DNA of 64,000 nucleotides from Asaia platycodi JCM 25414 (lineage in GTDB: Bacteria > Pseudomonadota > Alphaproteobacteria > Acetobacterales > Acetobacteraceae): positions 372,001-436,000 of the forward strand of contig NZ_BAKW01000001.1 of NCBI RefSeq assembly GCF_000614545.1. Reading direction: 5' to 3'. The position numbers were made by a program, and so were the translations under genes. Numbering within the stretch: the stretch's first letter is position 1; every line of letters begins with the position of its first letter. Below the pieces are notes generated by a model. That model was given only the letters and a program-made list of their open reading frames with translations. It searched no databases and was not told the origin of the DNA. Of this stretch, positions 1-64,000 are shown one piece after another.

Positions 1-911
1 GCCCAGCTTGGCAAACATCTGCATATGCAGGCTGTAATCGGCCATCGCGACGGGGTTGTCTTCGGGTGCGACGAAATTCAGGCCCACGAAACGCGCATCG
101 TCATGAACAAGCTGATAGCCTGCATCGAGCTGGGTGAAGACCTGCGCGGGTGTCATGGTGCGTATGGCCTGAAACAGATAGCGCACGGTGACGGCGCAGC
201 CGGGATGAGCGGCTGGCGTGTCGCATTGCAGGATGTCGCGCGCATCATGCTCCATCTCATCCGTATCGTGTCGCGCTTCCGCGACCAGACGGGGGCGCTC
301 CTCCGCAAGGGCTTCATGGGCAGCAGCAAGGTCGAGATCGTGCAGCGGGTGCTGGTCGCCTGCTTTGACCATGGCGCCCAGTCCCGGTGAGATCATGAGT
401 TCGAGATAGACGACATGATCGGCGGCGGCCTGATCGCGCGCCTGGGCCAGCATCGCCCCTGATGGGCGGCGAGCACAGGAGCGAAGCGCCCAAAAGTCGA
501 GAAAAAGTGATCGTGACCGGAGCGATCTGTCGGGGAGGGTACGAAATCATGCATCGAGAGAGAATCGATCATGACAGCCCGTGCGTCGTCATGGGCCCTG
601 AGCTGGGAGACAGGGATGTCGCCCGGTGTGGCGAGGCGGCATTTTGTGGGGAGAATGCGCCCCTGTGCAAGCGACGCGCAGAGCCCGTCTTCACCGGCCC
701 AGTCGAGAAAGCTCTCGGCGGGGATGGCGCCTGCCAGATGATTATGCAGATCGCCCCCTTTCGGGAAGCTGCGCATGAACAGGGTCAGGCGGGTCGGATC
801 GCTGCGAATATGATCGAAAACACGCGCCGTCGCCTGAGCCTCGGGCGTTTCAGCCTGAGCAGACAGGATCGGGAAAGCGACGAGAAGAGCGGGTAAAAAG
901 CGGGGCACCAT
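1..911 (-). CDS. Exported adenosine deaminase-like hydrolase, C-terminus outside window, one frameshift
   Basis: Predicted metal-dependent hydrolase that deaminates adenosine to inosine. The start at 911 gives a signal peptide (MVPRFLPALLVAFPILSAQA), so the enzyme probably acts in the periplasm or outside, like ADGF-type adenosine deaminases; an in-frame ATG at 947 would bury that signal. The motif GDLHNHLAGA about 55 residues in is the family's first zinc-binding HxH segment. Near 462 the frame breaks inside CAGGGGCGATG; adding one G restores HQGAMLAQARDQAAADHV and an open frame to base 1. The C-terminal half with the remaining metal ligands lies beyond the window. The family call is good; preference for adenosine over a related substrate is inferred. 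Confidence 0.75.
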
Positions 912-1133
912 ATCGCGGAACGTGACGAAAGCCGTCCGCTTTTGCAAGCATCCCTGCGGGGATGAGAGCGCTTTTAACTGGTATTTATTGTTTATGCCGC
1001 AGTCGGCTAGCGAACCGTACCGGGGCGGGTGGAAAGGCCGGCCCCGCTTCTCGAGAGAAGCCGGTGCCCGGCCTGATCCGGGGCGTCAGGGCGGGGCGGA
1101 AACCACCCTCGACCGACCGACGCCCTGAGCGGC

Positions 1134-1412
1134 TTACTTGCCGGTCAGCGCGTCCTTGACGTTCTTGGCCGGGGAGTAGCTGAGCTTCTTGGAAGCAGCG
1201 ATCTCGATCGTCTCGCCCGTCTTCGGGTTGCGGCCCTGGCGGGCTGCCGTCGAGCGGACCTGGAACTTGCCGAAGCCCGGAATGGACACTTCGTCACCCT
1301 TGGTGGCGGCGTCGATGATGCTGGCCCAGACCGTGTCGAGGGCGGTCTTGGCGTCGGCCTTGGTGCCACCGGTAGCGGCGGCGATGCGGTCGATCAGATC
1401 AGTGGATTTCAT
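1134..1412 (-). CDS. hup: DNA-binding protein HU
   Basis: Small nucleoid protein of 92 residues, the usual HU length. It carries the HU core GFGKF (residues 46-50) and the arm RNPKTGE (61-67), whose proline intercalates into and bends DNA. The start at 1412 is chosen because AGAGGA lies about six bases upstream and the protein begins MKSTDLIDRIA as HU proteins do; a longer in-frame extension to 1568 has no HU similarity. Monocistronic and divergent from xdhA. The sequence fits HU rather than IHF because the family-specific IHF alpha/beta features are absent. Intact. Confidence 0.95.
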   Translation of the reverse strand: MKSTDLIDRIAAATGGTKADAKTALDTVWASIIDAATKGDEVSIPGFGKFQVRSTAARQGRNPKTGETIEIAASKKLSYSPAKNVKDALTGK

Positions 1413-1600
1413 TGTGATCCTCTTGCGTTTGGAATGGCCGTGGAGCCTTAGGCGCAGTTCGAAGCGAGAACAAGGCAGGAAATGCAATATTCCTGATTGT
1501 TCTCTGACGTCGAATCTCCCAATCATACAAGAGTTTAAGGAAATGGCGAAGGGGTCGACCCCTTTCATTCCTACGCTTTCCGCTTTTTGAAGGGGTCTTC

Positions 1601-3118
1601 ATGCGTCAGTCGATACGGTTCTATATGGGGGAGCGCCTCGTCAGTCTGGCCGACGTCGCCCCCGACCAGACCCTGCTCGACTGGCTACGTCATGAGGGCC
1701 GCACAGGCACGAAAGAGGGATGCAACGAGGGCGATTGCGGCGCCTGCACGGTGATTATCGCGCGTTTGAGCCAGAATCGCCTGGTTCTCAAAGCCACCAA
1801 CGCCTGTATTCAGCTCATGCCAATGCTCGACGGTGCGGCCTTGTTTACCATTGAGGATGTCGGCCATGCGGCCGCGCTGCATCCCGTTCAGGAGGCGATG
1901 GTCAACCTCAATGGCGCGCAATGCGGCTTCTGCACGCCGGGTTTTGTGATGTCGATGGTCGCGTATCGCAATGCAGACGGGCGATCGGATGACGATGCCG
2001 CGATTGATTCGGCGCTTTCCGGCAATCTCTGCCGCTGCACCGGCTATGCACCGATCGTGCGCGCCATGAAACAGGCTCTCGCTGCTCCAGACAGTCCTTT
2101 CGAGACAGCACTTTCAGGCCTTGGGGCAAGGCTCGCGGCGCTGCAGGACGGCGGAGATGTGTCGATAGAGACGCCGCGTGGCGCGATTTTCCTGCCTGCC
2201 AGCGCGGACTCGCTGGCCCTTTATCTGCATGACCATCCTGAAACGCTGATCGTGGCAGGGGCTACCGATGTTGGCCTCTGGGTGACCAAAGCCATGCGTT
2301 CCCTGCCGCGTGTGGCCTTTATCGGACAATGCCCCGATCTGATGCGGCTCGAGCGCGATGATGAAGGGCTCCATGTCGGGGCGGCGGTCACCTATGACGC
2401 TGCACGTGAAGCACTGGCTGCCCTGCTGCCTGATTTCGGGGCGCTTATCGGGCGTATTGGCTCGACACCCATCCGTAACAGCGCGACGCTTTGCGGTAAC
2501 ATCGCCAATGGCTCGCCCATTGGTGACGGCCCACCGGCGCTTATTGCCGCCGGGGCCATGCTGCATCTGCGGTGTGGTGTCGAAAAACGCGTGATCCCGC
2601 TTGAGCGCTATTTTTTGGCCTATGGCAGGCAGGACCGGCGGAAAGGCGAGTTCGTCGAGGCCGTCAGCATACCACCGCTCGCCGGGGGCACCTTCTATCG
2701 AAGCTATAAGATCTCGAAGCGCTTCGATCAGGACATCTCCGCAGTACTCGCCGCTTTCGCGCTGCGTTTCGATGAGGAAGGGATCGTGCTGGAGGCGCGC
2801 CTGGCTTTCGGAGGCATGGCGGCAACCCCCTCTCGGGCCGCACGCGCCGAGGCGGCTCTGGTCGGCGCCCCTTGGAACGAGGCCACGCTCGAAGCAGCGC
2901 GTCTGGCATTGACAGAGGACTTCACTCCGTTGAGCGATATGCGTGCCAGCGCCTGGTATCGTCAGACAGTCGCCGCCAATCTGCTGACGCGTTTCTTCGA
3001 GGAAAGTCAGGGTGAGACCACGCGCCTCGCCAAAGCTGGAGGCTCGTGCATGTCTGACCCGATCGCTTTGGAAGCGCTGCCTTCCTCCGTTTCTGTGCCT
3101 GAATCGACCGTGACATGA
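1601..3118 (+). CDS. xdhA: Xanthine dehydrogenase small subunit (2Fe-2S and FAD)
   Basis: Electron-transfer subunit of the cytoplasmic molybdenum enzyme that oxidises hypoxanthine to xanthine and then urate. 505 residues. The N-terminal plant-type ferredoxin domain has CNEGDCGAC (Cys41, 46, 49) and the second cluster domain has QCGFCTPGF and NLCRCTGY. Residues of about 190-370 form the FAD-binding domain (VAGATDVGLW, TPIRNSATLCGNIANGSPIGD), followed by the CO-dehydrogenase flavoprotein C-terminal domain. The ATG at 1601 follows GAAGGGG. The stop overlaps the xdhB start by four bases (ATGA), indicating translational coupling. Intact. Confidence 0.95.
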   Translation: MRQSIRFYMGERLVSLADVAPDQTLLDWLRHEGRTGTKEGCNEGDCGACTVIIARLSQNRLVLKATNACIQLMPMLDGAALFTIEDVGHAAALHPVQEAMVNLNGAQCGFCTPGFVMSMVAYRNADGRSDDDAAIDSALSGNLCRCTGYAPIVRAMKQALAAPDSPFETALSGLGARLAALQDGGDVSIETPRGAIFLPASADSLALYLHDHPETLIVAGATDVGLWVTKAMRSLPRVAFIGQCPDLMRLERDDEGLHVGAAVTYDAAREALAALLPDFGALIGRIGSTPIRNSATLCGNIANGSPIGDGPPALIAAGAMLHLRCGVEKRVIPLERYFLAYGRQDRRKGEFVEAVSIPPLAGGTFYRSYKISKRFDQDISAVLAAFALRFDEEGIVLEARLAFGGMAATPSRAARAEAALVGAPWNEATLEAARLALTEDFTPLSDMRASAWYRQTVAANLLTRFFEESQGETTRLAKAGGSCMSDPIALEALPSSVSVPESTVT

Positions 3119-6281: not shown

Positions 6282-6957
6282 ATGACCGGACCCGGCCCGA
6301 TACGCGGCATCCTGTTCGATATGGATGGCGTACTGCTCGATAGCGAAACGCTCTCGCTCGATGCGTTTGTCTTGGCGGCGCGGGATCTGGGGCACGACAT
6401 GCCCATCGGGTTTGCCCGTCAGATGATCGGTCTCCCCGGCGATGCCTGTGCGCGTCTTGTGGTCGAGACATATGGGCCTGAAGTCGATCTCGGGGCGCTG
6501 TTTCGTGCGCAGGACCGCCATATGCATGAACTGGTCGAAGCGGGTGGCTGATCATGAAGCAGGGCGTAGTGCCGCTTCTCGATTATCTCGATGCGCGCAA
6601 GCTGAAGCGGGCCATTGCAACCTCATCGAGCCGCGCGCGCACCGACGCCATCTGCGTCATGTCGGCATCTATGAGCGTTTCGATGCGATCGTCACGCGTG
6701 ACGATGTGACACGTGGCAAGCCTGACCCCGAGCCTTATCTGCGGGCCGCCGCTGCGATCGGTATCGATCCGGCCTATTGTCTGGCGGTGGAGGATTCCCA
6801 TAACGGGGCCCGCGCCGCTCATGCTGCTGGTATCAGGGTAATCGTCGTGCCTGATCTCATGGCTCCAAATGAGGAAATCATCGGCAAAGCGCATGCGATC
6901 ATGGACGACCTTCATGAAGTGCGCGACTTCATCGAACGCGCCGATAGCGCGGCCTGA
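6282..6957 (+). CDS. HAD-superfamily phosphatase (beta-phosphoglucomutase/GS-like), two frameshifts
   Basis: Haloacid dehalogenase-type hydrolase acting on a small phosphorylated metabolite; the exact substrate cannot be told. The N-terminus holds motif I, LFDMDGVLLDSE (nucleophile Asp in DMDGV). Motif II falls in ATSSSR and motifs III/IV in GKPDPEPYL and VEDSHNGARAA. The ATG at 6282 follows a strong AAGGAGGA. The frame breaks near 6545 and near 6640, each repaired by one added base (EAGGLIMKQG and TDAHLRHVG), giving one protein of about 225 residues, normal for the family. It lies 72 bases behind xdhC and may be in the same transcript. Confidence 0.85.
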
Positions 6958-7062: not shown

Positions 7063-7251
7063 CTAGTGACAGCCCCCACCTTTGCAGCCGTTACAGCCAT
7101 CGCAGCCTTTCTTCGAGGCGCTGTCGGGTGCGGTTTGTCGGGCGATCCCGAGCCGGGCCTTGAGGCGCGCCGCGTGAATGGGGAAGAGCCTGTTCAGCCA
7201 GAAGAGCAGGGCAATCACAACGAGGGTGATGACGATCAGGCTCTGGATCAT
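7063..7251 (-). CDS. Small membrane-anchored Cys-rich FeoB-associated protein
   Basis: 62-residue protein with one N-terminal membrane segment (SLIVITLVVIALLFWL) and a C-terminal cysteine cluster KKGCDGCNGCKGGGCH. Proteins of this shape (FeoB-associated Cys-rich or FeoC-position proteins) lie downstream of feoB in many Proteobacteria and are thought to assist ferrous iron transport, perhaps by binding metal; the mechanism is not established. Its ATG overlaps the feoB stop by four bases (ATGA), so it is the third gene of the feo operon. Intact. Confidence 0.85.
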   Translation of the reverse strand: MIQSLIVITLVVIALLFWLNRLFPIHAARLKARLGIARQTAPDSASKKGCDGCNGCKGGGCH

Positions 7252-9118
7252 GATGGGGTTCCTGTAAGGGCGCGTGTCACATGATAGGTAAGCAGCGCCG
7301 CCACATAGGCAAGGCCAAACAGATACGCGGCAGCACCCAGAACGACCTTGAGTGAGCGTGTCTCGCGGCGCATCACGGCAAGGGTCGAGATGCATTGCGG
7401 CGCGTACACATACCAGGCGAGCAGCGAGAAAGCCGTTGCCATGCTCCAATGCGCGCTGAGCAGGGGCATGAGCTGGCTAGCCGCCGTGTCGTCATTGGCG
7501 CCCAGCGCATAGACGGTGGCGAGCGCGCTGACCGCGACCTCTCGCGCCGCAAGGCCCGGGATAAGCGAGACGCAGATCTGCCAGTTGAAACCGATCGGCG
7601 CAAAGATCGGCAGCATCCAGTGGCCGATCATGCCCGCCAGACTGTAATCGATAGCAGCCCCTGTCGCGTTGGCTGGCGGCGAGGGGAAGCTCGACAGCGC
7701 CCAGAGCAGAACGTTCAGCGAGACGATGATGGTGCCGACGCGCGAAAGGAACATGACGGCGCGCTGCCACAGACCCAGCGCCACGCTTTTCAGGTTCGGC
7801 CTGCGGTAGGGAGGCAGCTCCAGCATCAGCGGATGTTCGTCTGATTCCACGCCACGCGTCATGAGGCGTGCTGCGATGATGCCGCTGACGATGGCCACGA
7901 AATAGAGACCGAACAGAACCAGCCCCTGTAACCCCAGAAAGCCCAGCACGGTACGATGCGGCACGAAGGCCGCGATCAGCAGCGTGTAGACAGGGAGTCG
8001 CGCTGAGCAGGTCATGAGCGGTGCGATCAGGATCGTCACCAGACGGTCGCGCGGATTCTGGATGGTGCGTGCCGCCATGATGCCTGGAATGGCACAGGCA
8101 AAGCTCGAGAGCAGGGGAATGAAGGAGCGCCCGCTCAACCCGGCAAGCGCCATGATCCTGTCCAGCAGAAAGGCTGCGCGTGCAGATAGCCGGTTTCTTC
8201 AAGCGTCAGGATCCAGAGAAACAGGATCAGGATCTGCGGCAGGAAGACAATGACCGTGCCGGCGCCTGCGATCACACCGTCTGCCAGCAGGCTGCGCAGC
8301 AGCCCCTCAGGCAGGGGCGAGACGATCAGCTGACCCAGAGAGGCGATCCCCGCCTCGAGTGCGTCCATGATCGGCTGTGCCCAGGCGAAGACCGTCTGGA
8401 ACATGAAGAACAGCACAACCAAAAGAATGATCGGGCCCCAGACCGGGTGTAGAAACCAGCGGTCGAGCCGGTCGGCCATTCGGTCGTTCTTGAGCACCGA
8501 TTCATTGGTGAACCGTAATATCAGCGCGCCGACCTGAGTATGCAGATCGACCCCTTCCGGCAATGCGGGGGGGAGCGGAAATTCGGGCTTTTCGAGCGCG
8601 TCGAGCAGATGGGTCACACCGCTCTTGCGCAGGCTGATGGTCGGTATGATCGGCACGCCAATGGTAGCAGCGAGGCCGGGTACGTCGATCTTGAGACCTA
8701 TACGGGCGGCTTCATCCATCATGTTCAGCACGACCAGCATGGGTCGGCCGAGCTGGATCAGTTCAAGCAGAAAACGCAGATGAAGGCGCAGATTGCTGGC
8801 CGAAACGACGCAGATGATCAGATCGGGTTGCTTCTCGACCGCATGGCGCCCCATGCAGACATCGCGAGTAACGTCTTCATCGGGGCTCGTGGCGCTCAGG
8901 CTATAGGCGCCGGGCAGGTCGAGCAGTCTGATGGAGCGGCCCAGCGGAGTGGTGAAACGCCCCTCCTTGCGCTCGACCGTGACACCGGCATAGTTGGCGA
9001 CTTTCTGCCTGCTGCCGGTCAACTGGTTGAAGAGCGAGGTTTTGCCGCAATTGGGATTGCCGACGAGGGCAGCCCTTAACGGTTTTGTGGCCGTTTCCGG
9101 CGGGGCGACAGCATGCAT
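7248..9118 (-). CDS. feoB: Ferrous iron transporter FeoB, one frameshift
   Basis: Inner-membrane Fe2+ permease with a cytosolic G-protein domain. G1 is GNPNCGKT (residues 20-27), G3 is DLPG and G4 is NMMD. Gate-type hydrophobic segments follow (PIILLVVLFFMFQTVFAW, IVFLPQILILFLWI) with the FeoB core signatures LEETGYLARAAFLLDR and SFACAIPGIMAAR once repaired. The break lies near 8182, where TATCTGCACGC needs one G to read YLARAAF. Total about 620 residues, typical for a short FeoB. FeoA lies six bases upstream and the Cys-rich protein overlaps the stop. Confidence 0.93.
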
Positions 9119-9998: not shown

Positions 9999-11574
9999 AT
10001 GACCTCAGCCGAGGGCGGTGTCTTGTCTGATAACGTATCGAATACATCCCACGATGTGCTGATCATAGGCGCTGGCCTTGCCGGGCTTACGCTGGCCCGG
10101 CAATTGCTTGATGCTGACCCTGCGCTCGATATCTGTCTTGTGCATAATCGCCGGTTTCCAAATCCCGAGCGTATCCACAAGGTCGGTGAGTCCACCGTTG
10201 AGATCGGTGCATTCTACCTGGCTGAGATCGTCGGTTGCGCGGCACATCTGCAGACCGAGCATCTTCGCAAGATGGGATTGCGCTTTATTCAGACCCAGGG
10301 CACGACACAAGAAGATCCTTATCGCGAAATCGGTCTGAGCTATTATCCGTATCAGGCGACCTATCAGATTGATCGTGGCAAGCTCGAAAATCACATTCGG
10401 AACACACTCGGCGCGTCGGTCACTCTCATCGAGAATGGCCGTGTGCTGGATTTCGATAGAAATGATGGCGTGAGTACGGTCTCTATCCGGGATCACGACG
10501 GGGCCATTTCAACGCGATCAACGCTGGGTTGTCGATGCGTCCGGTCGCGGTCGCGTGCTGATGAAAAAATTCGGTTTGCAGAAAAGCGCGAATATCAACC
10601 ACTCGGCAGTCTGGTTTCGCGTTGAAGGCAAGGTCGATATCAATGACTTCCTGGCTTCTTCCGATGCGGAAAATTCGTTCGCTCATGCTGGCGAGCGTGC
10701 GCGAAGCACAACGCATATCATCGGGAAGGGGTACTGGGTCTGGATTATTCCTATCAGTGAGCAGACGACCAGCATAGGCATCGTGTTTGACAATGCCATC
10801 TTCAAGCTTTCGGAACTGAGTTCGCACCCGCTGGCGATGGGATGGCTGCAGCGAAACGAGCCACGCTTTCATGACTATCTGCTGGAGCGCGATTTCGGCG
10901 TTATCGATTTTGTCATGCTGCGCAATTATTCCTATTTATCGGAGCAGTTTCTCTCCGAGGATGGCTGGGCCCTGACGGGCGAAGCTGCCGGTTTCGTCGA
11001 TCCGATGTATTCGAATGGCACCGACATGATCGGTCTTGCCAATACGATGATCACGAACGCCATCACAAAACCTGACGGCGTCAAAATGATCGAGCAGATG
11101 AATTACGTTCTCAGTGAGGCCTATGCTGGCTTTGTTGACACGCACCGTGACTCGTATCGTTTCTTCAACGACTGGAACTACGTTTTCGTCAAGACGAACT
11201 GGGACGCGAGCTTTTATTTCCTGTTCATGTGTGTTCTGTTCATGAATAGAAAGTTCGAGGACATCGCGTTCATTCAGTCGATCCATGAGAAGATCAGCGC
11301 TTTTTACGCGTTGCATCACGAAGTTATGGATTTTCTCAGGCAGGACGGAGCGGTCTCGAGCGATTATCGCCTCCCGGAATTCATCAATCTGGCGGGCACG
11401 GTCCAGGATTTTGCAAACCGGACGATCATAAGTCCGGATGCCTCAGATGATTGTATCCGCGAGCGGCTCGACCAGAACATGATCATTCTGAGGGAGTTGG
11501 CTGACTCCATCATGCATTCCAGAAAATTCGATGAAAACTTCTCTCAGATGGGGCAACGCCTGAATGCAGCCTGA
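9999..11574 (+). CDS. Flavin-dependent halogenase-like FAD oxidoreductase, one frameshift
   Basis: FAD enzyme of the tryptophan-halogenase-like superfamily. The N-terminus has the dinucleotide motif VLIIGAGLAGLTLARQL. HKVGESTVEIG holds the Lys-x-Gly-Glu arrangement of the halogenase catalytic lysine region, and YWVWIIPI contains the WxWxIP motif that sets flavin halogenases apart from monooxygenases. EDGWALTGEAAGFVDPMYSNG is the second FAD contact. The frame breaks near 10520, joining DHDGAIST to RWVVDASGRGRVLM; unlike most breaks here, removing one base or adding two is needed. Total about 525 residues. ATG 9999 is the best standard start; TTG 10023, behind GAGGGCGG, is an alternative. The substrate is unknown, and no carrier protein or flavin reductase lies nearby. 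Confidence 0.7.
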
Positions 11575-11668
11575 CCGGCTGCGTCTGATCTCCGCTGCAG
11601 CTCCGGCAGTCGGTTTGTAAGGCGTGTTGGCACGTCCTATATTCTGGGTTTGATCCGGCCGGGAGTAT

Positions 11669-13413: not shown

Positions 13414-14899
13414 TCAGAAATTTGTCGTCAACTGGCCACCCAGAATGGCGGCATCCTTGAAAGTGGTCGTGGCACCGGGGTGCTGCAGATACTGAAAGTC
13501 GAATTGCAGCGCGGTCGCGGGCAGGAGGTGCACGCTGTAGAAGGCTTCGTAAACCTGCTCCCAGTTCTGCACCCCATAGACATTGCCCCATTGGTTGGAG
13601 ACAAACGGCAGACCCAGCGCCACTGAAGATTGCTGCTGCAGACGGATCGAGCGGCTCATGTTCATGTGCTGGAACATGATGCCGACCTGATCGAGTGGGC
13701 GGTGCCAGGGGGTACCGCTTTGCAGCAGGCCGATCCATTCATGATCGCGCATGGCCACGACGTTGCCTGGGCATAGCCGACGCCACCGATCACGATCAGA
13801 CCGTCGGCAATGCCCTTGCCGCTCCGCACCAGCATCTGATCGAACATTACCCAGCTCGACCACATGCCGGATTCCTTGCGGGCACCCAGCCCGCTGGCCT
13901 GATACGACCCGCCATACCGGTCTTCGTAGAGATTCGGATAGCGCGAATTGTCGTAGTAGAAACCGATCTTGTAATGGCCGAGCAACTTGTCCTTGCCAAA
14001 GGCAGGATCCCAGCCGGTTTCGAATTGCGAGCTGAGTTTGCCAAGCCCATCCTGGGCCAGTGCCCAGCCTGACACGCCGCCATTGAAGGCGTGTGGGCTG
14101 ACGGCGAAAAGCCTCCCATGATATAGGTCCGCTCGGTCGGTCGCACGCGCAGCACGGCGCCGATATTGGCTGAAGGCCAGTCACGACCGCCGGGCGCATA
14201 TTTGCCTGGTGCGAAATTTCCGCAGACGCTGACATTCATGAAGTTGCAGGCCAGCGCATCGAAATCGAAAAACGTTCCGGTCGGGATCACACCGGCCGAA
14301 AGAATGACCCGGTCATGCAGAAAGGTCTTGTCGGCATACATCGAGACGAGATGGGCCACGACATTGCCGCGTGAACCGTAGATCTGCTCGGGGTTGGAGA
14401 CGTAATCGCCCAGCGTCGAACTGAAATTGCGCCCATGACCGTTGACCACCAGAAGATGGGTCCAGAAGCCCTGAAAACCCGCGAGCTTCTGCCAGTCGAT
14501 ATCGAGTTCGGCGGCAACCTGACCGGCCAGCACGTTGTCACGCGTGCGGCCGCCGGTCACGTTGCCCATATATTCTTCATTCAGCGCGATATTGAGAAAG
14601 ATGCCGCGCTTTTGCATCCAGCTCTGCGCCCCGCCCCAATCGCCGAAAAGATGCGGATTGCCATATAGGGAAGGCACAAGCGGCCCGATCGGTACGGCGC
14701 CCTGTCCTGCGATCGGGAAGCCGATTGCGGTGTATCCACTACTGTCGAGCGTCTTGGCGGTTTCCGACTGTGCCCGGGCAGAGGGTGCCTGAATCGTCGC
14801 CAGTAGTGCCGTCGTGAAAGCAACGCCCAAGCCACGTCGTGTCTTTCGGCGCGCTTCAACAGGGCGCGCAGAGGGAAGGGCGCCGTCTCTGATGGGCAT
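13414..14899 (-). CDS. oprB: OprB-type carbohydrate-selective porin, two frameshifts
   Basis: Outer-membrane beta-barrel porin for sugars. The start at 14899 gives a signal peptide ending APSARAQ. The mature part has family hallmarks: LFGDWGGAQSWMQKRGI, NVTGGRTRDNVLAGQ, DWPSANIGAVLRVRP and FGKDKLLGHYKIGFYYD. It ends in an aromatic residue (GGQLTTNF), as outer-membrane barrels do. The frame breaks near 14085 and 13765; each needs one added base (HAFNGGVSGWALAQD and YAQ/GNVVAMRDHEW). About 495 residues. It lies 217 bases behind nagA on the same strand, so it may serve amino-sugar uptake, though OprB in acetic acid bacteria usually takes glucose and related sugars. Confidence 0.88.
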
Positions 14900-15115
14900 C
14901 AAGTCAGGTTTGGTCGTCACGTTTCTCAATCCAAATAACCATCGGGCGAAATAATCATCGGGTCGACGCCTCTCTGGCAGATCTGCCGAAAGGGGCGCCG
15001 ATAATGGTGATGGCATTAACAGAAAGACATGATGAAAGGACACGGATAAAGACTACAAAATTCCGTGTTACGTTGTTACAAAAACGATGATAGAGTTGAG
15101 CGTATTATAACGAGA

Positions 15116-16233
15116 TCAGTCGCGAGCGAAGGTTTTTCGCCCTCCCACCCAGACTTCTTTCACGGTGAGGGTGTGATCGAGAACCACCATATCGGCCAGC
15201 TTGCCAGTTTCGATAGCGCCCCGATCGGAAAGTCCCAGATAAGCCGCCGCGTTGGTGCTTACGAGACGACTTGCTTCGGGAAGAGACGCTCCATGGGTCA
15301 CAGCGTTGCGCAGGGCCTGGTCTAGGCTCAGCACGCTCCCGGCGAGAGAACCATTGGGCAAGCGCACGACCCCGCCTTCGATCAGGACTTCCTGTCCACC
15401 AATGTGCTGGGGCCGTCAGGTTGACCCGCACCGCGCATGGCATCGGTGACGAAAAGCAATCGGTTGCGCATGAGACGGGATGCGAGGCGGAAGCTGGCAG
15501 GGTGGACGTGATGTGCGTCGAAAATCATCTCGGCATAGCTCGCGTCATGGCACATCAGCGCTGTGACGGGGCCGGGTTTGCGCCCTTCTATGGGAGACAT
15601 CGCGTTGAACAAATGCGTACCACCTGCAATGCCGCCGCAGGTGCAGATGCTGGCAATCGCCCCCATCGTCGTTTCGTAATCGGCTATGGTGTGACCGATG
15701 CTGATACGCACATCGGCTCTTGCCAGGCTCGCAATGGCAGTATCGGCATGGTCGAGTTCCGGGGCGAGGGTAACGACCCTGACACAATCGAGAGCGACGA
15801 TTTCTGCAATTTTTTCAGGAGAGGGGGCGATAGCGAAGGGGGGTTGGGCACCGAGCTTGTGAGGGCTGACAAAGGGGCCTTCGAGATGAGCCCCATGAAT
15901 ACGCGGCCCCCCGGCGCTGGGGGTTTTCATCACCTCGGCCACCGCTTTGAGGGCGACGATGACATCTTCCCAGGGGCGGGTGATGGTGGTTGGCAGGATG
16001 GTCGTTGTGCCATGACGCATATGATACTGCGCGAGACACCTTATTGCCTCGGCGCCGTCCATCGTGTCCGCGCCATCGCCGCCATGCACATGGCCGTCGA
16101 TAAAGCCGGGTAGAATATAGTCACGCCCGGAGGTATCTCCCGCTTCGATCTCGCGAATATGGCTGTCGAAATGAACGGTGCCCGGCAGAAGGCGATCGGC
16201 CAGAACGATCTGGCCTGTCAGAGTCTGTGTCAT
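15116..16233 (-). CDS. nagA: N-acetylglucosamine-6-phosphate deacetylase, one frameshift
   Basis: Cytosolic amidohydrolase that converts N-acetylglucosamine-6-phosphate to glucosamine-6-phosphate and acetate. PGFIDGHVHGGDGAD is the metal-binding start, HLEGPFVS holds the metal-ligand Glu, GHTIADY and THLFNAMSPIEGR are conserved, and FVTDAMRGAG contains the catalytic Asp. Near 15405 one base is missing; repair joins PDGPST to IGGQEVLIEGGVVRLPNG and runs to AGSVLSLDQALRNAV and the true C-terminus. About 372 residues. It starts four bases behind nagP and is the last gene of nagK-nagP-nagA. Confidence 0.94.
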
Positions 16234-17517: not shown

Positions 17518-17543
17518 GATGTGCAAGTCCTCAAACAGACAAG

Positions 17544-20680: not shown

Positions 20681-20712
20681 GAACCGTTTCAGGACAAAGA
20701 GGATCGAACCCC

Positions 20713-47043: not shown

Positions 47044-47054
47044 CAACCCGGTTG

Positions 47055-47091: not shown

Positions 47092-47181
47092 TGCTATCAG
47101 CCATGTCTTGAAATGCGCCGGAGGATATTTCCGCACCCTCGTGAGCCTGCTGATCTATTCGCGTCGAGATGTACGTTTCTG

Positions 47182-48430: not shown

Positions 48431-48556
48431 GTACCCCGCTCTAAAGACTGAGAGAAGACGGTGCGATGGAAAACAAAATCTTATATCGCATCAGAAATTC
48501 GAATTAGGTTTCTTTGTCAATATCGGCTTGATTTTCTTCATACAGGGAGAAAATCA

Positions 48557-50386
48557 ATGCATATTGATGGTAAGCGTCGAGGAAATACGCGGGAAAATAC
48601 GCTGCACATTCCTGCGCATGTGCGTCTCTGGGTTGAAGAAATTGCCGCCCTTTGCGAGCCCGACCGAATATATTGGTGCGACGGAACGCAAACTGAATGG
48701 GACCGGATTGCCACCGAACAGGTCGCGCGCGGTTCGATGGTGGCGCTCAATCCCGAGCATTATCCCAATTCCTATCTGGCGCGCTCCGCCCCCAATGACG
48801 TGGCGCGCACTGAAGGCCGGACGTTTATCTGCGCTGCTTCGAAGGAAGAGGCCGGGCCAACCAATAACTGGATAGCGCCCGAAGAAGGCCGCGCTAAGAT
48901 GCAGGCAATTTTTAAAGGCTGTATGCGCGGGCGCACGCTCTATGTCGTGCCGTTCTGCATGGGACCGATCGAGGCAGAAAACCGGGTTATTGGCGTGCAG
49001 GTGACTGACAGCGCCTATGCGGTTCTCTCCATGCGCATCATGACGCGTATTGGCCGTGACGTGCTTGAAACCCTCGGTGAGAACGAGTTTTTTGCCCGTT
49101 GTATCCATTCTGTCGGCGCGCCGCGCAGCAAGGGCGAGCCGGATACAGGCTGGCCGTGCAACGATGAAAAATGGATCCTCCATTTTCCGGAAAGCCGTGA
49201 GATCTGGTCATACGGTTCAGGTTATGGCGGCAATGCCCTCTTGGGTAAGAAATGCCTTGCGCTGCGTATTGCCTCCGTCATGGCGCGCGATCAGGCTGGC
49301 TTGCCGAGCATATGCTCATTCTCAAGGTCACATCGCCGGAAAACAAGGTTCATTACATCGCGGGTGCCTTTCCGAGTGCCTGTGGCAAGACAAATCTCGC
49401 CATGCTCGATTCCACCTTGCCGGGATGGAAAGTCGAGACACTGGGTGATGATATCTGCTGGATGCGCGTCGGGGCCGATGGGTATTTCTACGCCTCCAAC
49501 CCGGAAACCGGATTTTTCGGTGTGGCCCCCGGCACGAGCGAAAAAACCAATCGCAATGCCATGCAGACCATGCGGGCCAACAGCATTTTCACCAATGCAG
49601 CCCTGACCGAAGAGGGCACGGTATGGTGGAAAGGCATGACCGATACACCGCCTCAGGGTCTGACAGACTGGCGTGGTCGCCCATGGGATCCGGATTCCGG
49701 CCCCGCCATGCATCCGAATGCCCGTTTCACGGCGCCTATCGAGCAATGCCCGTCCCTCGCTGAGGAATGGTGCCGCCCCGAAGGCGTCAGACTCTCAGCC
49801 ATTCTGGTGGGCGGACGCAGGGCGAGCGCTGTGCCGCTGGTGACTGAAGCCTTCAGCTGGGAACATGGCGTGTATATGGGCGCGACCCTCGCCTCGGAGA
49901 GCACGGCGGCCTCAGAGCACGATCTCGGAAGCCTGCGCCGCGATCCGTTCGCGATGAATCCGTTCTGTGGATACAACATGGGCGATTATTTCGCGCACTG
50001 GCTGAGCTTCGCGCAGAACGAGCAGGTCGACAAAGCCCATATGCCGCGCTTCTTCATGGTCAACTGGTTCAGAACCGATGAAAACGGCCGGTTTATCTGG
50101 CCTGGCTTTGGCGACAATATTCGTGTGCTGAAATGGATTGTCGAAAGATTGGAAGGCTCAGCAGAAGCGGTCGCCACGCCGGTTGGCAACGTACCCGCTG
50201 AAGGCAGCTCGATCTGGATGGTCTGGCCATACACGAAGACGATCTGGCCCCCCTCATGACGATTGATCGTGAAGCGTGGCGGAAGGAGGCAGAAGCGAAC
50301 AGGGATTATCTGGCTGGTTTGGGCGCGCGCGTTCCAGAGCGCTGCATGAGGAGCAGGATGCCTTGGAAAATCGCCTGAGCCCCTGA
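48557..50386 (+). CDS. pckG: Phosphoenolpyruvate carboxykinase (GTP), three frameshifts
   Basis: Cytosolic gluconeogenic enzyme making PEP and CO2 from oxaloacetate with GTP. The GTP-type signature is clear: [20 protein letters not shown] (substrate site), [13 protein letters not shown] (P-loop with the reactive Cys), LGDDICWMR (kinase-2 motif) and [15 protein letters not shown]. The start MHIDGKRR (48557) has GGGAGA upstream. Missing bases near 49302, 50207 and 50340; repair of the last two gives [17 protein letters not shown] and [16 protein letters not shown] ending at 50386. About 610 residues, the usual length. Most alphaproteobacteria use the unrelated ATP-type enzyme instead. Confidence 0.94.
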
Positions 50387-52306: not shown

Positions 52307-53709
52307 TTACTTCCCCTTCAAGTTCGGTGCCAGCATGGTGCGCGGATCGACCAGACGGTCGAAGTCGGCCTCGCTTACCGCGTTCAGGGCCAGGGCAGCC
52401 TCTTTCAGCGTGCAGTCATGGTCCATAGCGTGATGCGCGACTTTTGAGGCCGTGTCGTAGCCGATGGTGGGGGCAAGGGCTGTCACCAGCATGACGGACT
52501 CTGCCACATAGCGCTCGATGCGAGCGAGATTCGGCTTGGTGCCTTCAATCAGGAAGGTGCGGAAATTCTCGCTGCCGTCATGCAGCAGGGTGATGCTCTG
52601 CATGATATTCTGGATAATGAGCGGCTTGTAGACGTTCATTTCCAGCAGACCACCGGCACCACCGAAACCGACCGCCACGTCATTGGCCATGACCTGCACA
52701 GCCAGCATGGCCAGAGCCTCGGCCTGGGTCGGGTTGACTTTGCCCGGCATGATGGACGAGCCAGGCTCGTTTTCGGGCAGATGAAGCTCGGCAAAGCCGG
52801 CGCGCGGGCCGCAGGAGAGAAGGCGGATGTCGTTCGCGATCTTGTAGAGCGCGCCTGCCGTGGTGCGGAGCGCACCCGAAAAATGTACGAGCGCATCATG
52901 CGCGCCTTGCAGGGCAAATTTGTTTTCGCCGCTGATGAAGGCCGCATCGCTCAGGCGCGCGATCTCAGCGCAGGCGCGACCAGCAAAGGGGGCATCGGTA
53001 TTGATGCCGGTGCCGAGTGCGGTGCCGCCAAGAGCGAGAGGTAGAGACCTTTCTCGGCTTCCTGAATGCGGGCGATGTTTTCGCGCAGCATACCGGCATA
53101 GCCGTGGAATTCCTGACCCAGCGTGACCGGCACGGCATCCTGCATATGGGTGCGGCCAATCTTGACGATATCCTTCCACTCTTCGGCCTTGGCCTCGATG
53201 GATTCCGCCAGGCGGGTCAGGGCCGGAACCAGTCTGCGACGGCTGCCCAGAACCACAGCCACATGCATGGCAGTCGGGAAATTGTCGTTGGACGATTGCG
53301 ACATGTTGACGTGGTCATTGGGGTGAACCGGGCGCTTGCTGCCCAAAGCCTCGCCGGAAAGCTGGCAGGCGCGGTTCGAAATGACCTCGTTGATGTTCAT
53401 GTTGAACTGGGTGCCTGAGCCGGTCATCCATACATGAAGCGGGAACATGTCGGCGTGCTGACCGGCCAGGATTTCATCACAGACCGTAGTGATCAGCCTA
53501 CATTGCGTCTCGCCCAGACGACCGCTCTGATGGTTGGCACTCGCGCAGGCGCGCTTGACGATGGCATAGGCCTCGATCATCTCGCGTGGCATCAGCTCGC
53601 GGCCGATGCTGAAATAATGAAGCGAGCGCTGCGTTTGCGCGCCCCAGAGTTTGTCGGCCTGAATGGCGATTTCGCCGAGGCCGTCGCTCTCGATCCGTGT
53701 GTCGGTCAT
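52307..53709 (-). CDS. fumC: Class II fumarate hydratase, one frameshift
   Basis: Iron-independent TCA-cycle enzyme interconverting fumarate and malate. Motifs: [59 protein letters not shown] (catalytic His region) and [17 protein letters not shown], the fumarase/aspartase signature with the flexible catalytic Ser. Near 53038 one base is missing; repair gives [18 protein letters not shown]. About 468 residues, the usual length. The start at 53709 lies one base after the malic enzyme stop, so the two are co-transcribed. Its disruption as it stands would break the TCA cycle, which favours sequencing error. Confidence 0.95.
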
Positions 53710-53710
53710 G

Positions 53711-55360
53711 TCAGATCTTCTCATAAACACAATATTCGGGCGTCCAGACGAGAGACTGGATGCGGTCATGCAGTTCCTCGTCACTGAAATGAGGACATAC
53801 GCCATCTTCACGCGCCTGTCTGGCGGAAGCTTCGGCAACAGCCAGTGCGACCTTTCGCATTTGCGTGACTGGCGGCAGCAGATTGCCGTCCGGGTTGCTG
53901 CGCAGTGGGGAAAGCGAAGCAAGCCCCCGTGCCGCAGCCATGAACATGGCATCCGTCACGCGTGTGGCACCGGTTGCCAGTAGGCAGAGCCCGAGACCGG
54001 GAAAGATATAGGCATTATTCGTCTGGTCGACACGATGTGTGCGGCCATGCAGATCGAGCGGCGGAAAGGGGCTGCCGGTGCTGACCAGCGCGCGTTCCTC
54101 CGACCAAGCATGATGTCTTCCGGCGTGGCTTCCGAATGCGAGGTCGGGTTCGAAAGGGGGAAAATGATCGGGCGTTTGCAGTTTTCGGCCATCTCGCGCA
54201 CCAGAGCCTCGGTGAAGAGTCCTTTGACGCCCGACACGCCAATCAGAATGCTGGCCTTCGTTTCCCGAATGACGGTTTCCAGATCGGTGCCACGATCGCC
54301 CCAATCCTTGCGCGAATAAAGCTCCTGCCCGGAGTTGCTGCCCTTGCGCCCTTCCGTCAGCAGGCCCTTGCGGTCGAGCATATAGAAACGCGCCAGCGCT
54401 TCTTCTTCCGTTGCGCCTTCGTCACGCATGACCTGAAGCAGCAGGTTGGCAATGCCGACACCTGCCGAACCGGCGCCGAGCATGACAATGGTTTCGTCTT
54501 TCAGCTTGCCGTCATGCGCGGCATTAGCGCTCAGAATGGCCGCGGTGGTGACGGCTGCCGTACCCTGGATGTCGTCATTGAAGGTGCACAGCCGGTCGCG
54601 ATAGCGTTCGAGAAGAGGGGCCGCGTTGACGCCGCTGAAATCTTCCCAATGTAGAACAACATGCGGCCAGCGTGTCTGAACGGCGGTTACGAAACGTTCG
54701 ATGAAGGCGTCGTATTCCGCGCCCCGAATACGCTCATGGCGCCAGCCGATATAGGCCGGGTTTTGCAGCAGGTCCTCGTTATTGGTGCCGGTGTCGAGCA
54801 GGATCGGCAGGGTCTGGTCAGGCGAGATGCCGGCGCAGGTGGTATAGAGTGAGAGCTTGCCGATGGGGATGCCCATGCCGCCTGCACCTTGATCGCCAAG
54901 GCCCAGAATGCGCTCGCCATCGGTGACAACAATCACGCGCACATCGTCATAGGCGGGGTTCGAGAGGATATCCTCCATCGACTCGCGCTCGGGATAGCTG
55001 AGGAAAAGCCCGCGCGGCGCTGCCAGATTTCCGAAAAACGCTGACAGGCTTCGCCAACCGTTGGCGTATAGACCAGCGGCAGCATTGTATCGATCTTGCG
55101 GGTGAGTAGCGCATAGAACAGCGTTTCGTTCGTGTCCTGCAACTCGCGCAGATGCACATGGCGGGCGAAAGGCGAGGGCAGGGCATCGAGAAATTTCAGC
55201 GCCGCCTCGACCTGCTCATCCAGAGATTGGACGGCATGCGGCAAATGCCCATGCAGCTCGAAGGCATCGCGCTCATCCGGCTGAAGGCCAGACCCTTGTT
55301 CAGAAAGGGGTGATCGAGCAGATCCTGCCCCGAAAGGGCAATGGAGAGCGTTTTGGTCAT
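53711..55360 (-). CDS. maeA: NAD(P)-dependent malic enzyme, three frameshifts
   Basis: Cytosolic enzyme decarboxylating malate to pyruvate. About 551 residues, the single-domain MaeA/SfcA type without a phosphotransacetylase tail. Motifs: [71 protein letters not shown] (metal-binding Asp residues), [18 protein letters not shown] (cofactor site) and [18 protein letters not shown]. Breaks near 55282, 55018 and 54103 each need one base. The start at 55360 is the first Met before the conserved region. First gene of mae-fumC. Confidence 0.94.
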
Positions 55361-55707
55361 GGGCCTGTCTCCAGACATGAAGCTTGTGGTTTCACGGGAA
55401 ACCGCTGGCCGGGAAGTGAACCACATGCCTCCCAACGATGCGAGATCCCCTGAACCTAACGTGATCAGCTGCAGGCTCCGTATGCGCGACGTCTGCCGAA
55501 GCTTCACGGGGAACACGATGTACGCAGGCCGCCTGCAAAGGTCAGTCAGCGCAAGGCGCTCTGCCAGGACACGATCGCGCCAGATTCAGCATGGCGCGTA
55601 TCGCCATGGCATGAAGAGAAAAGGCGCAGGACGCAGCGCCGTTGCGTCACCGACGCGTGACTTGCTTGGAGAGCATCAGCCGGGCAGGCTGGACCACAGG
55701 GTCGATT
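55361..55707. other. 347-base gap before malic enzyme
   Basis: Lies between the P1 peptidase stop and the malic enzyme start and should hold the promoter of the malic enzyme-fumarase operon. GTCAC and GTGAC flank a six-base centre within TGCGTCACCGACGCGTGACT near 55645. No gene seen. Confidence 0.35.
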
Positions 55708-56784
55708 TCATGCCGGGGGGCTGTGTCGCGCTATAGACGCCACGCGCCACGCGCGGGCGAGCACATCGGCAGCGATGCTGCCAAGTCGCGCGACAAGCAG
55801 GGCACGCCCTTCTTCGGGCACCTTCCTGAGGCCTGTCGTGAGCGCAAAGATCGTGTCGCCGTCGAAGGGCGAATGAACGGGATGAATGGCGCGCGCCAGT
55901 CCGTCCTGCGCCATCATGGCAATCCGCTTGAGCTCATCCTGCGTAAGCCTGGCATCGGTCGCGATGCAGGCCAGCGTGGTATTTGCCCGTGGCTGCGGGT
56001 CTAGTTTGGTGCCGCTCAAGTCTTCCGGCGCAATTCGCGACGGCGATACGCCAAGACCGCCGAACTCGCTTTCCTGTTCGAAAGGGGCCGCCCAGAAATG
56101 TTTTTCATGCGGCAGGGTGACAGAACCCAGACTATTGGTCGCCACGATGGCGCCGATTGTATAGCCGTCACGGCTCACCCAGGAGGCCGTACCGATACCG
56201 CCCTTGAGCCGACCGGCCATGGCGCCATACCCCGCGCCGACCGTCCCGAGCGTTACACTACGCCCGGCATGGCGCACGGCTTCCATACCGAGGGCCCGAT
56301 AAGGGGGTGTCTCGCCCCAGGATTTATCGCCACCATTATCGAGATCATAGAGAATAGCCGCCGGGACGATCGGTGAGACAGGCACGCCCTCAACCCGCTT
56401 CATGGCAAAACCGCGCCCTCTGGCGCCGAGCCATGCCGCCACCCCATCGGCGGCGGCCAGCCCGTAGACCGAGCCGCCAGAGAGGGTGAGGGCATCGATT
56501 CGATGCACCAGATTCCAGCCATTCAAGGCATCGGTCTCGCGTGTGCCGGGGCCGCCGCCGCGCACGTCAACCGCGCAGGGGGCAGGATTATCGGGCAGAA
56601 TGACCGTCACGCCGGTGCGTGTTTCTGCACTCTGGGCCTGTCCGACGGTCAGCCCCTCAACATCGGTCAGGCTGTTTGAGGCGCCGACATGACCCTCGCC
56701 GTGAGCTGTCGGGGCGGCTCGTGTCGCATCGGAAAGAACGAGACCGGTCACGAGGCTGGAGAGCAGGAAATCACGACGCTTCAT
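55708..56784 (-). CDS. P1-family (DmpA-like) peptidase with Tat signal
   Basis: 358 residues, intact. The N-terminus MKRRDFLLSSLVTGLVLSDA is a twin-arginine signal, so the protein is exported folded. The P1/DmpA fold is indicated by LTDVEGLTVGQAQ, GVTVILPD, CAVDVRGGGPGTRETDAL, IDALTLSGGSVYGLAAADG and RANTTLACIATDA; in this family autocleavage just before the Thr/Ser of such a motif creates the N-terminal nucleophile. Members act as beta-peptidyl or D-amino acid aminopeptidases. It follows the PLP decarboxylase by 205 bases on the same strand. Confidence 0.88.
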   Translation of the reverse strand: MKRRDFLLSSLVTGLVLSDATRAAPTAHGEGHVGASNSLTDVEGLTVGQAQSAETRTGVTVILPDNPAPCAVDVRGGGPGTRETDALNGWNLVHRIDALTLSGGSVYGLAAADGVAAWLGARGRGFAMKRVEGVPVSPIVPAAILYDLDNGGDKSWGETPPYRALGMEAVRHAGRSVTLGTVGAGYGAMAGRLKGGIGTASWVSRDGYTIGAIVATNSLGSVTLPHEKHFWAAPFEQESEFGGLGVSPSRIAPEDLSGTKLDPQPRANTTLACIATDARLTQDELKRIAMMAQDGLARAIHPVHSPFDGDTIFALTTGLRKVPEEGRALLVARLGSIAADVLARAWRVASIARHSPPA

Positions 56785-58313: not shown

Positions 58314-58555
58314 ATGGGACCAAACCCCCCCTCATGCAACTAAAAAATGGACCCCAATTCTTTTTTCTGCACTGGACGCATGGTCACGCCGCCGTAACGC
58401 GAAACGCGGTGCAACGTTTCCGCCGCCACCGCGTCATGCTGGTATCATGCGCCTTGCGTAACTATAGAGAGGCAGCGACAGATCATGTGTCCCGGGGTGC
58501 ATCAATGATGCATAGCGGGGGCAGGGATCGAGCCAACCAGAGGAAGGAATACTGC

Positions 58556-59718
58556 GTGGACGAAACCCCCACCCTACGAAGCCAGATGTCACAGGAAGCG
58601 GCAGAATCGGGCGGCGCGGTCGAAGCACGGAAAGTCTCTGGCGACCATGCGGCGCATGGTGAAGCTGCGTCGGGCCTATCGGAAGGGGACACTGTCGAGG
58701 CGCTCGGTCGCGAAGCGCCGGGCACAGGGGCGAAAAGTCCTATCCACATGCCGTTTGGTGGCTGGAAGCTCGTTTTGCGCCAGACGCTGAGCAATCTCGG
58801 GTCCAGCCAGACGAGTCTCTCGGCGGCAGGCTGCGCATTTTACGCGACGCTCTCTCTCTTTCCGGCTATCACGTCGCTGATCTCGGTCTATGGGCTGGTT
58901 TTCGATCTGCAGACCGTTGAACCGCAACTCAACGTGTTGCGCAGTCTGTTACCCCCGACGGCCTTCGAGCTGATCGCCTCGCAGATCCACACCCTGATCG
59001 GTCAACCTCATGCCTCTCTGACCATGGGCTGATCTTTTCTATCTCGATTGCGCTCTGGTCGGCTTCTGCCAGCACCAAATCAGTGCTGTCGGCGCTGAAC
59101 CTTGCCTATGATGTTCTGGAGACACGCGGTTTTTTCCGGTTCCAGTTTCTCGCGCTAGGGGTCACATTCGGGGCGGTAATCGGCGCGTGCCTTACGCTAG
59201 CACTGATGGTCGCCTTCCCGGCTCTGGTCGATTACCTGCCCGATCTGCTCAATCGCTTCGGCTTGCGCAATCTCCCACCCGAGATCCTGTATCTCACCGA
59301 TTATCTGATGAGCTACAGCACCCGTTATATCGTGCATTTCGGCGCCCCTGCCTTGATGCTGCTCTTCGTATTCATCGCGGTCACGCTGCTGTTCCGATAC
59401 GGCCCCTGCCGCGACAAGCCCGACTGGCGCTGGATCGTGCCGGGTTCGCTCGTTTCGACCCTGCTATGGGTGCTGACATCGCTTGCTTTCTCCTATTACG
59501 TCAGTCACTTCGCGAGCTACGGATCCACCTATGGCCCCCTCGGTGCTGTCGCCGCCATCATGATGTGGTTCTTCGTGGGCACCTATGTCGTGCTTTTCGG
59601 GGCTGAGCTGAATGCTGGTCTTGAAGACCGTATGAAAGGCTTCAACCCCAAAGTCCCCGGGCTTACCCGCGTTCAGGCAACAGCTGAGCCGTCGGAAGCG
59701 GCGGCCTCCGAGGTCTGA
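58556..59718 (+). CDS. yihY: YihY/UPF0761-family inner-membrane protein, one frameshift
   Basis: Polytopic inner-membrane protein of unknown function (formerly labelled ribonuclease BN). After a hydrophilic N-terminal tail of about 70 residues come the family blocks LSAAGCAFYATLSLFPAITS and ISIALWSASASTKSVLSALN, DKPDWRWIVPGSLVSTLLWV and GTYVVLFGAELNAGLED. The start is GTG 58556 because GAGGAAGGA lies just upstream; the same frame stays open far back across the antisense of the decarboxylase gene, which is not coding. Near 59031 one base is missing (LTMG-LIFSISIAL). About 388 residues. Confidence 0.87.
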
Positions 59719-60806: not shown

Positions 60807-61262
60807 ATGATTCGCCCGATGATTGCCGTGCTCAACGGCCCCAACCTCAACATGCTCGGTATGCGCCAGCCGGAAATATACGGCCATGCGACCTTGGACG
60901 ACCTTGAACAGGTCTGCATTCAGGCTGCCGAGCAGCTCGACGTCGCCATCGATTTTCGTCAGACGAACATCGAAGGCGAACTCGTTTCCTGGATTCAGGA
61001 GTGTCGAGGGCGGGCGCGTGGTATCGTGATCAACCCGGCGGCTTACGGCCATACGTCCATCGCACTTCTGGACGCGTTGCTCGCGACGGGGCTGCCGACG
61101 GTCGAGGTCCATATCTCCAATATCCATCGCCGCGATGCCTTTCGCCATCATACCTATACCTCTCAGGCCGCCATTGGCGTAATCTGCGGGTTTGGCGTGC
61201 GTGGCTATGCCATGGCATTGCGTGCACTTTATGACATGATCGAAGACGAGGACGAACGATGA
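60807..61262 (+). CDS. aroQ: 3-dehydroquinate dehydratase, type II
   Basis: Shikimate pathway enzyme, 151 residues, intact. AVLNGPNLNMLGMRQPEIYG holds the active-site region, INPAAYGHTSIAL and VEVHISNIHRRDAFRHH (catalytic His) are type II signatures. ATG 60807 is chosen; ATG 60819 is two turns nearer to the conserved core and also possible. The stop overlaps the accB start (ATGA). The order aroQ-accB-accC is common in alphaproteobacteria including acetic acid bacteria. Confidence 0.95.
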   Translation: MIRPMIAVLNGPNLNMLGMRQPEIYGHATLDDLEQVCIQAAEQLDVAIDFRQTNIEGELVSWIQECRGRARGIVINPAAYGHTSIALLDALLATGLPTVEVHISNIHRRDAFRHHTYTSQAAIGVICGFGVRGYAMALRALYDMIEDEDER

Positions 61263-61707
61263 GCCGTATGCTCGTGGACGCAGATGCCATCCGGGCATTG
61301 GCTGACATCCTGACCGAAACCGGTCTGACCGAAATCGAGGTTGCCGAAAAGGACAACCGCATCCGCGTGGTGCGTAGTGCTGGCGGCCAGATCGTTCATG
61401 CTGCGGCCCCGGCGCCTGCAGTGGCGGCTCCTGTAGCGGCTGCGGCCCCGGCACCTGTCGATGCCGCCAATCATCCGGCGCTGTGAGCAGCCCGATGGTC
61501 GGCATCGCCTATCTGACGCCCGATCCGGCCGCACCGCCTTTCGTGCACGAAGGCCAGAGCGTGACCGCCGGTCAGACCATCATGCTGATCGAGGCCATGA
61601 AGACCTTCAATCAGATCAAGGCGCCCCGCAGCGGCACGCTGACGCGCTTCCTGGTGGCCAGCGGCGACCCGGTTGAGTTTGGCGAAGCTCTCGCCATCAT
61701 TGAATAA
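61259..61707 (+). CDS. accB: Biotin carboxyl carrier protein of acetyl-CoA carboxylase, one frameshift
   Basis: Carries biotin between the carboxylase and transferase parts of acetyl-CoA carboxylase in fatty acid synthesis. The N-terminal part (LVDADAIRALADILTETG, EVAEKDNRIRVVR) is followed by an Ala/Pro-rich linker and the biotinyl domain with MLIEAMKTFNQIKAP, where Lys is biotinylated. Near 61483 one base is missing; repair reads NHPAL-VSSPMVGIAYL. About 149 residues. The gene is essential in bacteria with type II fatty acid synthesis, so a true frameshift here is very unlikely. Confidence 0.95.
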
Positions 61708-63675: not shown

Positions 63676-63772
63676 GCCCCGTCCGACGGGACTCCTGCCG
63701 GTCTCCCGCTAACGGGCCGTTGCTTGCCGGAACCCTATTTGACAAGATGAGAGGGGCAAACGCCTTTCCGGG

Positions 63773-63808
63773 GCTTGAAGCAGGGCCCCATCGAACCCCG
63801 CTTCAAGC
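63773..63808 (-). terminator. Terminator of the S41-like peptidase gene
   Basis: GCTTGAAGC and GCTTCAAGC are exact nine-base arms with an 18-base loop, five bases beyond the stop codon of the leftward gene at the window edge. Confidence 0.6.
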
Positions 63809-63813
63809 GCGCC

Positions 63814-64000
63814 TCAGTCGGGTCTGGCTTCAGCCTGTCCCGTAAAGGGCTGCGGCACCATCGGGGCGACGGGCTGTTTTTCAAGCAGGGTTTGAAGCGT
63901 CTCCAGAGCCTTGTCGAGTTGCTGGTCCTGGCCATTGAAGGTTGCGACCGGCATGTTTTCGACGGTGATGTCGGGCTCGACACCGTGGTTTTCGACCAGC
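63814..64000 (-). CDS. C-terminal end of S41/tricorn-like protease, truncated by window edge
   Basis: Only the last 61 residues are in the window. VENHGVEPDITVENMP followed by DQQLDKALETLQTLLEKQP matches the extreme C-terminus of tricorn-type and other S41 serine peptidases, where a (G)xxPDI-V-N-P motif precedes a helix. A Pro/Gln/Ala-rich tail and a TGA at 63814 follow. The catalytic part lies beyond 64000. Confidence 0.65.
   Translation of the reverse strand, partial: LVENHGVEPDITVENMPVATFNGQDQQLDKALETLQTLLEKQPVAPMVPQPFTGQAEARPD

Follow-up and report, generated by a model that had tools for sequence, protein, structure and literature searches.

The window analyzed here is a 64,000-nucleotide stretch of the Asaia platycodi JCM 25414 draft genome (G000), spanning positions 372001 to 436000 of a 453-kb contig (contig 35), in which about 40 frame-breaking junctions were found in about 26 genes, nearly all of them lacking a single base. 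These breaks most probably represent consensus errors of the draft assembly and not gene decay, a reading to which we assign a probability of about 0.96 on the strength of sequence comparison. We read them as artefacts because of their bias towards -1 changes, their uniform spread, the breakage of essential genes, their run context, and the presence of the same signature in sister drafts together with its absence from clean relatives. A first-pass annotation of the window had counted some 40 frameshifts in 24 genes and had preferred sequence error to decay; the count was borne out, and the two grounds of one-sided sign and broken essential genes hold beyond the window.

Frame changes in the window and along the contig

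The A. platycodi draft comprised 3.15 Mb in 35 contigs, with a completeness of 85.9 and a contamination of 3.3. Completeness was 99-100 in five other genomes (G002-G006), and the low value for A. platycodi would fit with broken marker genes. Three clean relatives served for comparison: A. siamensis CCM 7132 (G004), the closest named genome in the scan; A. krungthepensis NRIC 0535 (G005); and G006, probably A. bogorensis NBRC 16594, a single 3.198-Mb chromosome. Two further drafts, A. prunellae JCM 25354 (G001) and G007 (probably A. astilbis JCM 15831), were treated as suspect sister drafts. G+C content was 59.0% for the A. platycodi contig and 57.9% for that of G007; the A. platycodi genome held two CyoA loci, one of them in two pieces, and G007 a single CyoA copy.

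Window junctions were located by aligning the open reading frames of the three clean relatives, with gaps up to 24 nucleotides (nt) apart summed and 45 nt at gene ends excluded; A. prunellae was the reference for an island at 39.9-50.8 kb that A. siamensis lacks. This gave 74 merged frame-change sites, consisting of 27 supported by several relatives, 37 supported by one and ten based on A. prunellae. Comparison with a close relative's genome was one of the checks that the first-pass annotation had proposed, and at least two of the three clean relatives reported a frame change at all 27 sites of the first group. At 21 of these every relative indicated -1, one site (10499-10510) was -2 throughout, and five were of mixed length (3070-3093, 14936-14947, 19950-19962, 22827-22828 and 55377-55385). 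The 37 single-relative sites are less reliable, because 21 of them had lengths other than -1, leaving 16 at -1. Ten A. prunellae frames were aligned, and ten events, all -1, fell in five island genes; betA and three other frames carried none, and the frame at 31135-32874 differed from A. prunellae by -5 and +4 close to its start. The claim that nearly all junctions lack one base is upheld.

The same pattern extended along the contig, where 154 genes aligned with A. siamensis at a minimum of 70% identity, 82 of them intact in the clean controls (hereafter control-intact). These 82 genes held 70 events (0.68 per kb), of which 61 were -1, seven were -2 and two were +1, each of the 61 being one single gap. 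When the controls were filtered in the same way, by keeping genes intact in the other control (83 genes for A. krungthepensis, 85 for G006), -1 accounted for none of 7 events and for 1 of 8, respectively, at about one tenth of the A. platycodi event density. Without filtering, the -1 share was 124/149 in A. platycodi, 74/104 in A. prunellae and 30/51 in G007, compared to 5/57 and 2/30 in the controls.

At 0.62 per kb overall, losses of one base were about as dense in the window (0.67 per kb; 29 events; 19 of 31 genes hit) as in the remainder of the aligned contig (0.60 per kb; 95 events; 66 of 123 genes hit), which rules out a local patch of poor sequence. Across eleven 25-kb bins the losses were uniform (chi-squared test, P = 0.74) and counts per gene were close to Poisson. 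Nor did they fall with conservation: with genes ordered by rising identity to A. siamensis, the rate was 0.76, 0.56, 0.65, 0.49 and 0.93 per kb, the last value belonging to genes at least 90% identical.

Sequence context, essential genes and sister drafts

The context of the losses was assessed with anchored events, i.e., -1 events flanked by three matching bases on each side. Of 40 such losses in A. platycodi, 33 affected a G or C, and two- to three-base runs were the site of 30. The frequency of loss in runs of at least two was 16 times that at single bases (P = 5e-16), and in 29 of the 31 losses from G/C runs of two or more a C followed the G-run (or the complement), compared to a background of 58% of such runs (P = 2.4e-5). 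In the controls only four losses could be anchored, all of them at single bases, despite 11,817 G/C runs of at least two. When anchoring was dropped, 50 of the 124 -1 events lay outside any run, some of which may stem from misplaced gaps.

Long homopolymers are ruled out as the main cause, since the anchored losses were mostly in runs of two to three bases, and the first-pass annotation's emphasis on homopolymer runs has to give way to short G/C runs followed by C. The individual runs that it had named fared unevenly. CCCCCC is present at 20906, with the gap placed by the relatives at 20915-20921, and GGGGG is present at 24239, yet the relatives put the gap at 24190-24197. GGGG at 462 and TTTT at 17213 had also been named, whereas the closest four-base runs on the plus strand read CCCC (456) and AAAA (17220).

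Breakage was not confined to accessory functions. Six large essential genes (rpoB, rpoC, gyrA, ileS, dnaE and alaS) were looked up in eight Asaia genomes, and 10 of 18 gene-genome combinations were split in the three suspect drafts (two genes in A. platycodi, four in A. prunellae and four in G007), compared to 0 of 30 in G002-G006. The A. prunellae gyrA was scored as split from two pieces, its alignment to a parC-like locus (62% identity) having been excluded. In A. platycodi dnaE and alaS were split, with rpoB, rpoC, gyrA and ileS whole. A single -1 was the only gap in dnaE in each suspect draft, while three clean genomes aligned to the A. siamensis gene without a gap; alaS of A. platycodi carried one -2 and one -1. 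Weaker synthetase-like matches had open frames shorter than in the clean genomes (e.g., 432 compared to 657 codons, and 480 compared to 614-622), and no second alaS was seen in the A. platycodi genome. A second, open dnaE-family homologue was present, presumably the error-prone DnaE2, which is not known to substitute for dnaE. A living cell should not lack either dnaE or alaS.

Nothing in the broken genes pointed to decay. For substitutions at third positions relative to first and second positions together, the ratio was 3.70 across 46 broken genes and 3.27 across 36 intact ones; constraint was alike in both. In-phase nonsense codons numbered 5 in 21,725 in broken and 7 in 12,448 in intact genes, as rare as in the controls (24 in 49,288 and 16 in 36,234).

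The sister drafts had the -1 bias, the following-C context and broken essential genes in common with A. platycodi, and differed in having about half the event rate, other positions and a weaker run preference. In control-intact genes, -1 made up 40 of 48 events in A. prunellae and 18 of 21 in G007. No two drafts had events 10 nt or less apart (63, 50 and 49 shared genes among the three drafts); the defect is common to the three drafts in kind and not in position. Their 25 anchored losses combined included 10 in runs of two to three, and 9 of 10 losses from G/C runs of at least two stood before C (P = 0.024). Acetobacter persici JCM 25330 (L025), from a neighbouring accession series, was also inspected: it gave three net -1 events in about 7.5-8 kb, with -1 making up 3 of 8 events against reference L035 and 3 of 6 against L023 (1/3 and 0/0 between the two references), a sample too small to judge.

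Origin of the breaks

The verdict is a sequencing and assembly artefact without a biological mechanism. As we picture it, sequencing and base calling would have dropped one base, sometimes two, about once per 1,600 coding bases, in most cases a G or C from a run of two to three bases with C next on that strand. The error would have been carried into the assembly, where genes intact in the living cell would consequently look split. One of the sister drafts has already been suspected in print: the A. astilbis draft was described in 2015 as possibly highly erroneous, a high mutation rate being the other option given there (PMC4596401).

This verdict is independent of the platform, which goes unnamed for these Asaia drafts in the literature searched. 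We lean slightly towards the Ion Torrent Personal Genome Machine (PGM). In the sections drawn on here, Bragg et al. (2013, PMC3623719) report high-frequency PGM indels at about one per 1,000-2,000 bases, mostly of a single base, 29% of them in homopolymers and most often A/T insertions or C/G deletions, and name such indels as a source of frame-shifts in assembly. Strand-asymmetric indels made up 7.4% of 12,107 testable sites there; 82% of them occurred in two- to three-base runs, with C/G deletions predominating. The A. platycodi losses resemble this strand-asymmetric class in being single-base, dominated by G/C (33/40) and mostly in runs of two to three (30/40). The rate of 0.62 per kb falls within the one per 1-2 kb given for the PGM, but that figure covers all high-frequency indels and not the strand-asymmetric subset. 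The preference for a following C was measured in A. platycodi itself, and "GGC" does not occur in the main text of PMC3623719.

Several observations weigh against consensus error or fit it imperfectly. The fit to the PGM is partial, since insertions are common on that platform and rare in A. platycodi, and the match in run length and base belongs to the 7.4% subset, which alone is too rare. Events of -2, which make up 7 of the 70 in control-intact genes, are too frequent for paired independent -1 events and look like a second error class, also present in alaS. In the sister drafts the run bias was weaker (10/25 in runs of two to three), and their most conserved genes carried zero losses, in 8.0 kb at 90% identity or more for A. 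prunellae and in 6.7 kb at 86% or more for G007, where two to three were expected. The six essential genes of A. platycodi held 3 events in 20.3 kb compared to about 12.6 expected (P = 0.0015), with no event in the four whole genes (rpoB, rpoC, gyrA and ileS; 14.2 kb; contigs 32 and 24); error rate or coverage may vary between contigs, contig 35 having 0.62 losses per kb. Finally, non-coding sequence gave -1 and +1 events in a ratio of 16:11 in 10.9 kb, an excess in the expected direction that was not significant. A 16S family search in eight Asaia genomes returned no match and carries no weight as a non-coding test.

Single-base losses in short runs do occur as real mutations, and the breaks could then record genuine pseudogene formation in a host-associated Asaia undergoing genome reduction under deletion-biased mutation, to which the deficit of events in the essential genes would also lend itself. 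Insect-derived Asaia have been reported with genome reduction and many pseudogenes (PMC8092202), and many frameshifted genes are a feature that A. platycodi has in common with them. We regard this explanation as very improbable. Unlike the pseudogenes of that report, the A. platycodi breaks are one-sided, fall in essential genes and come without an excess of nonsense codons. A -1 to +1 ratio of 61 to 2 is no mixture of insertions and deletions, dnaE and alaS were not spared, the loss rate on the contig is flat with conservation, and constraint does not distinguish broken from intact genes. Less improbable, though still unlikely, is a mixture in which most breaks are errors and a few are true mutations, for example in the halogenase-like or the Hint-domain gene. 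Both of these carry a net -2 (at 10499-10510 by two relatives and at 34738-34740 by three) and the former is more diverged (71% identity), but -2 also occurs in alaS of A. platycodi and in 7 of 70 control-intact events.

Recoding offers another route by which split genes might be functional. Programmed or tolerated frameshifting, with the organism reading through the shifts, would be in line with the shared sequence context and the continued constraint, and is nonetheless exceedingly improbable, as the three drafts have no positions in common (within 10 nt) and the six essential genes are open in G002-G006. Known transcription slippage, moreover, requires long A/T runs. Equally far-fetched is a real lineage-specific process by which three plant-associated Asaia type strains lose one G or C from short runs preceding C and tolerate the loss through recoding that keeps dnaE, alaS and other split genes working.

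Affected genes of the window and consequences

Pieces on both sides of a junction matched the same Pfam family in the PEP (phosphoenolpyruvate) carboxykinase, betB, betT, fumC, malic enzyme, OprB porin and BrkB genes. In the first part of the window, an HAD-family hydrolase gene (6282..6957, plus strand) has two -1 junctions, on both of which the three clean relatives agree, with HAD_2 on the 3' piece. A feoB-like ferrous iron transport gene (7248..9118, minus strand) has one -1 junction by three relatives and FeoB_N on one piece. The gene labelled flavin adenine dinucleotide (FAD)-dependent and halogenase-like by the first-pass annotation (9999..11628, plus strand) has its net -2 by agreement of A. 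siamensis and A. krungthepensis; weak FAD-binding Pfam matches lie on its 5' piece, the 3' piece has no match, and the 71% identity refers to A. siamensis. An OprB-family porin gene (13414..15043, minus strand) carries two -1 junctions by three relatives, with OprB on both pieces. An amidohydrolase gene (15115..16233, minus strand; Amidohydro_1 on one piece) and an MFS transporter gene (16238..17538, minus strand; MFS_1 on the larger piece, no match on the smaller) each have one -1 junction by two relatives. In a GH20 hexosaminidase gene (20712..22911, plus strand; Glyco_hydro_20) three relatives locate one -1 close to the 5' end and a further one or two close to the 3' end, and in a TonB-dependent receptor gene (23997..26516, plus strand; TonB_dep_Rec) three relatives locate a -1 close to the 5' end (24190-24197). 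The Hint-domain gene (33018..34999, minus strand; Hint_2) has a net -2 for which the three relatives include the suspect draft G007; in each Asaia genome searched (G000-G008) its family had between 9 and 28 matches. These results bear on three exceptions to one-base loss singled out earlier. The halogenase-like and Hint-domain genes do differ in being net -2, without being unique in this, whereas the break at the GH20 C-terminus (22827-22851) resolves into one or two losses of a single base.

The island breaks were identified against A. prunellae only, and include one -1 in a betB-like aldehyde dehydrogenase gene (43184..44652, minus strand; Aldedh on both pieces), two in a BCCT-family, betT-like transporter gene (45486..47046, plus strand; BCCT on both pieces) and three in a GTP-type PEP carboxykinase gene (48557..50386, plus strand; PEPCK_N and PEPCK_GTP on separate pieces), which is open in A. 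prunellae at 92.6% DNA identity. At 41467-50386 this gene adjoins choline/betaine genes, i.e., a GMC oxidoreductase, an aldehyde dehydrogenase, a BetI-type regulator and the BCCT transporter. A PEP carboxykinase piece was matched in 3 of 30 genomes, namely A. platycodi, A. prunellae (97% amino-acid identity) and one genome of the same class (59%), a distribution that suggests lateral transfer of the gene.

Further along, fumC (class II fumarase; 52307..53952, minus strand) has one -1 at 53037-53041 by three relatives, with Lyase_1 divided over both pieces. A malic enzyme gene (53711..55479, minus strand) has three -1 junctions by three relatives each, malic and Malic_M being spread over three pieces, plus a cluster near 55377 with conflicting calls. 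A peptidase family S58 gene (55676..56784, minus strand; Peptidase_S58) has one -1 near its 3' end by two relatives, and a BrkB/YihY-family membrane protein gene (58523..59718, plus strand) one -1 by three relatives with BrkB on both pieces. A probable accB (biotin carboxyl carrier protein; 61259..61707, plus strand) lies directly upstream of accC and has one -1 by A. siamensis alone; its short pieces had no Pfam match and the name derives from the adjoining accC. The breaks in the genes at 17575-18481, 27663-29948 and 30251-31050 are likewise backed by A. siamensis only.

The affected drafts appear to be type-strain references, in which false breaks can raise coding sequence (CDS) counts. Published counts are 3482, 3583 and 3774 for three JCM drafts compared to 2896 for A. 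bogorensis of similar size (PMC8156966). An Asaia polyketide synthase gene has likewise been reported as likely divided into two genes (PMC8776678), a split that might be the same kind of error if it was drawn from these drafts. False breaks probably depress completeness scores as well, and in comparative studies of Asaia they can be mistaken for pseudogenes, absent operons or divided genes. The context of a two- to three-base G/C run followed by C provides a read-free test for the same error in other drafts.

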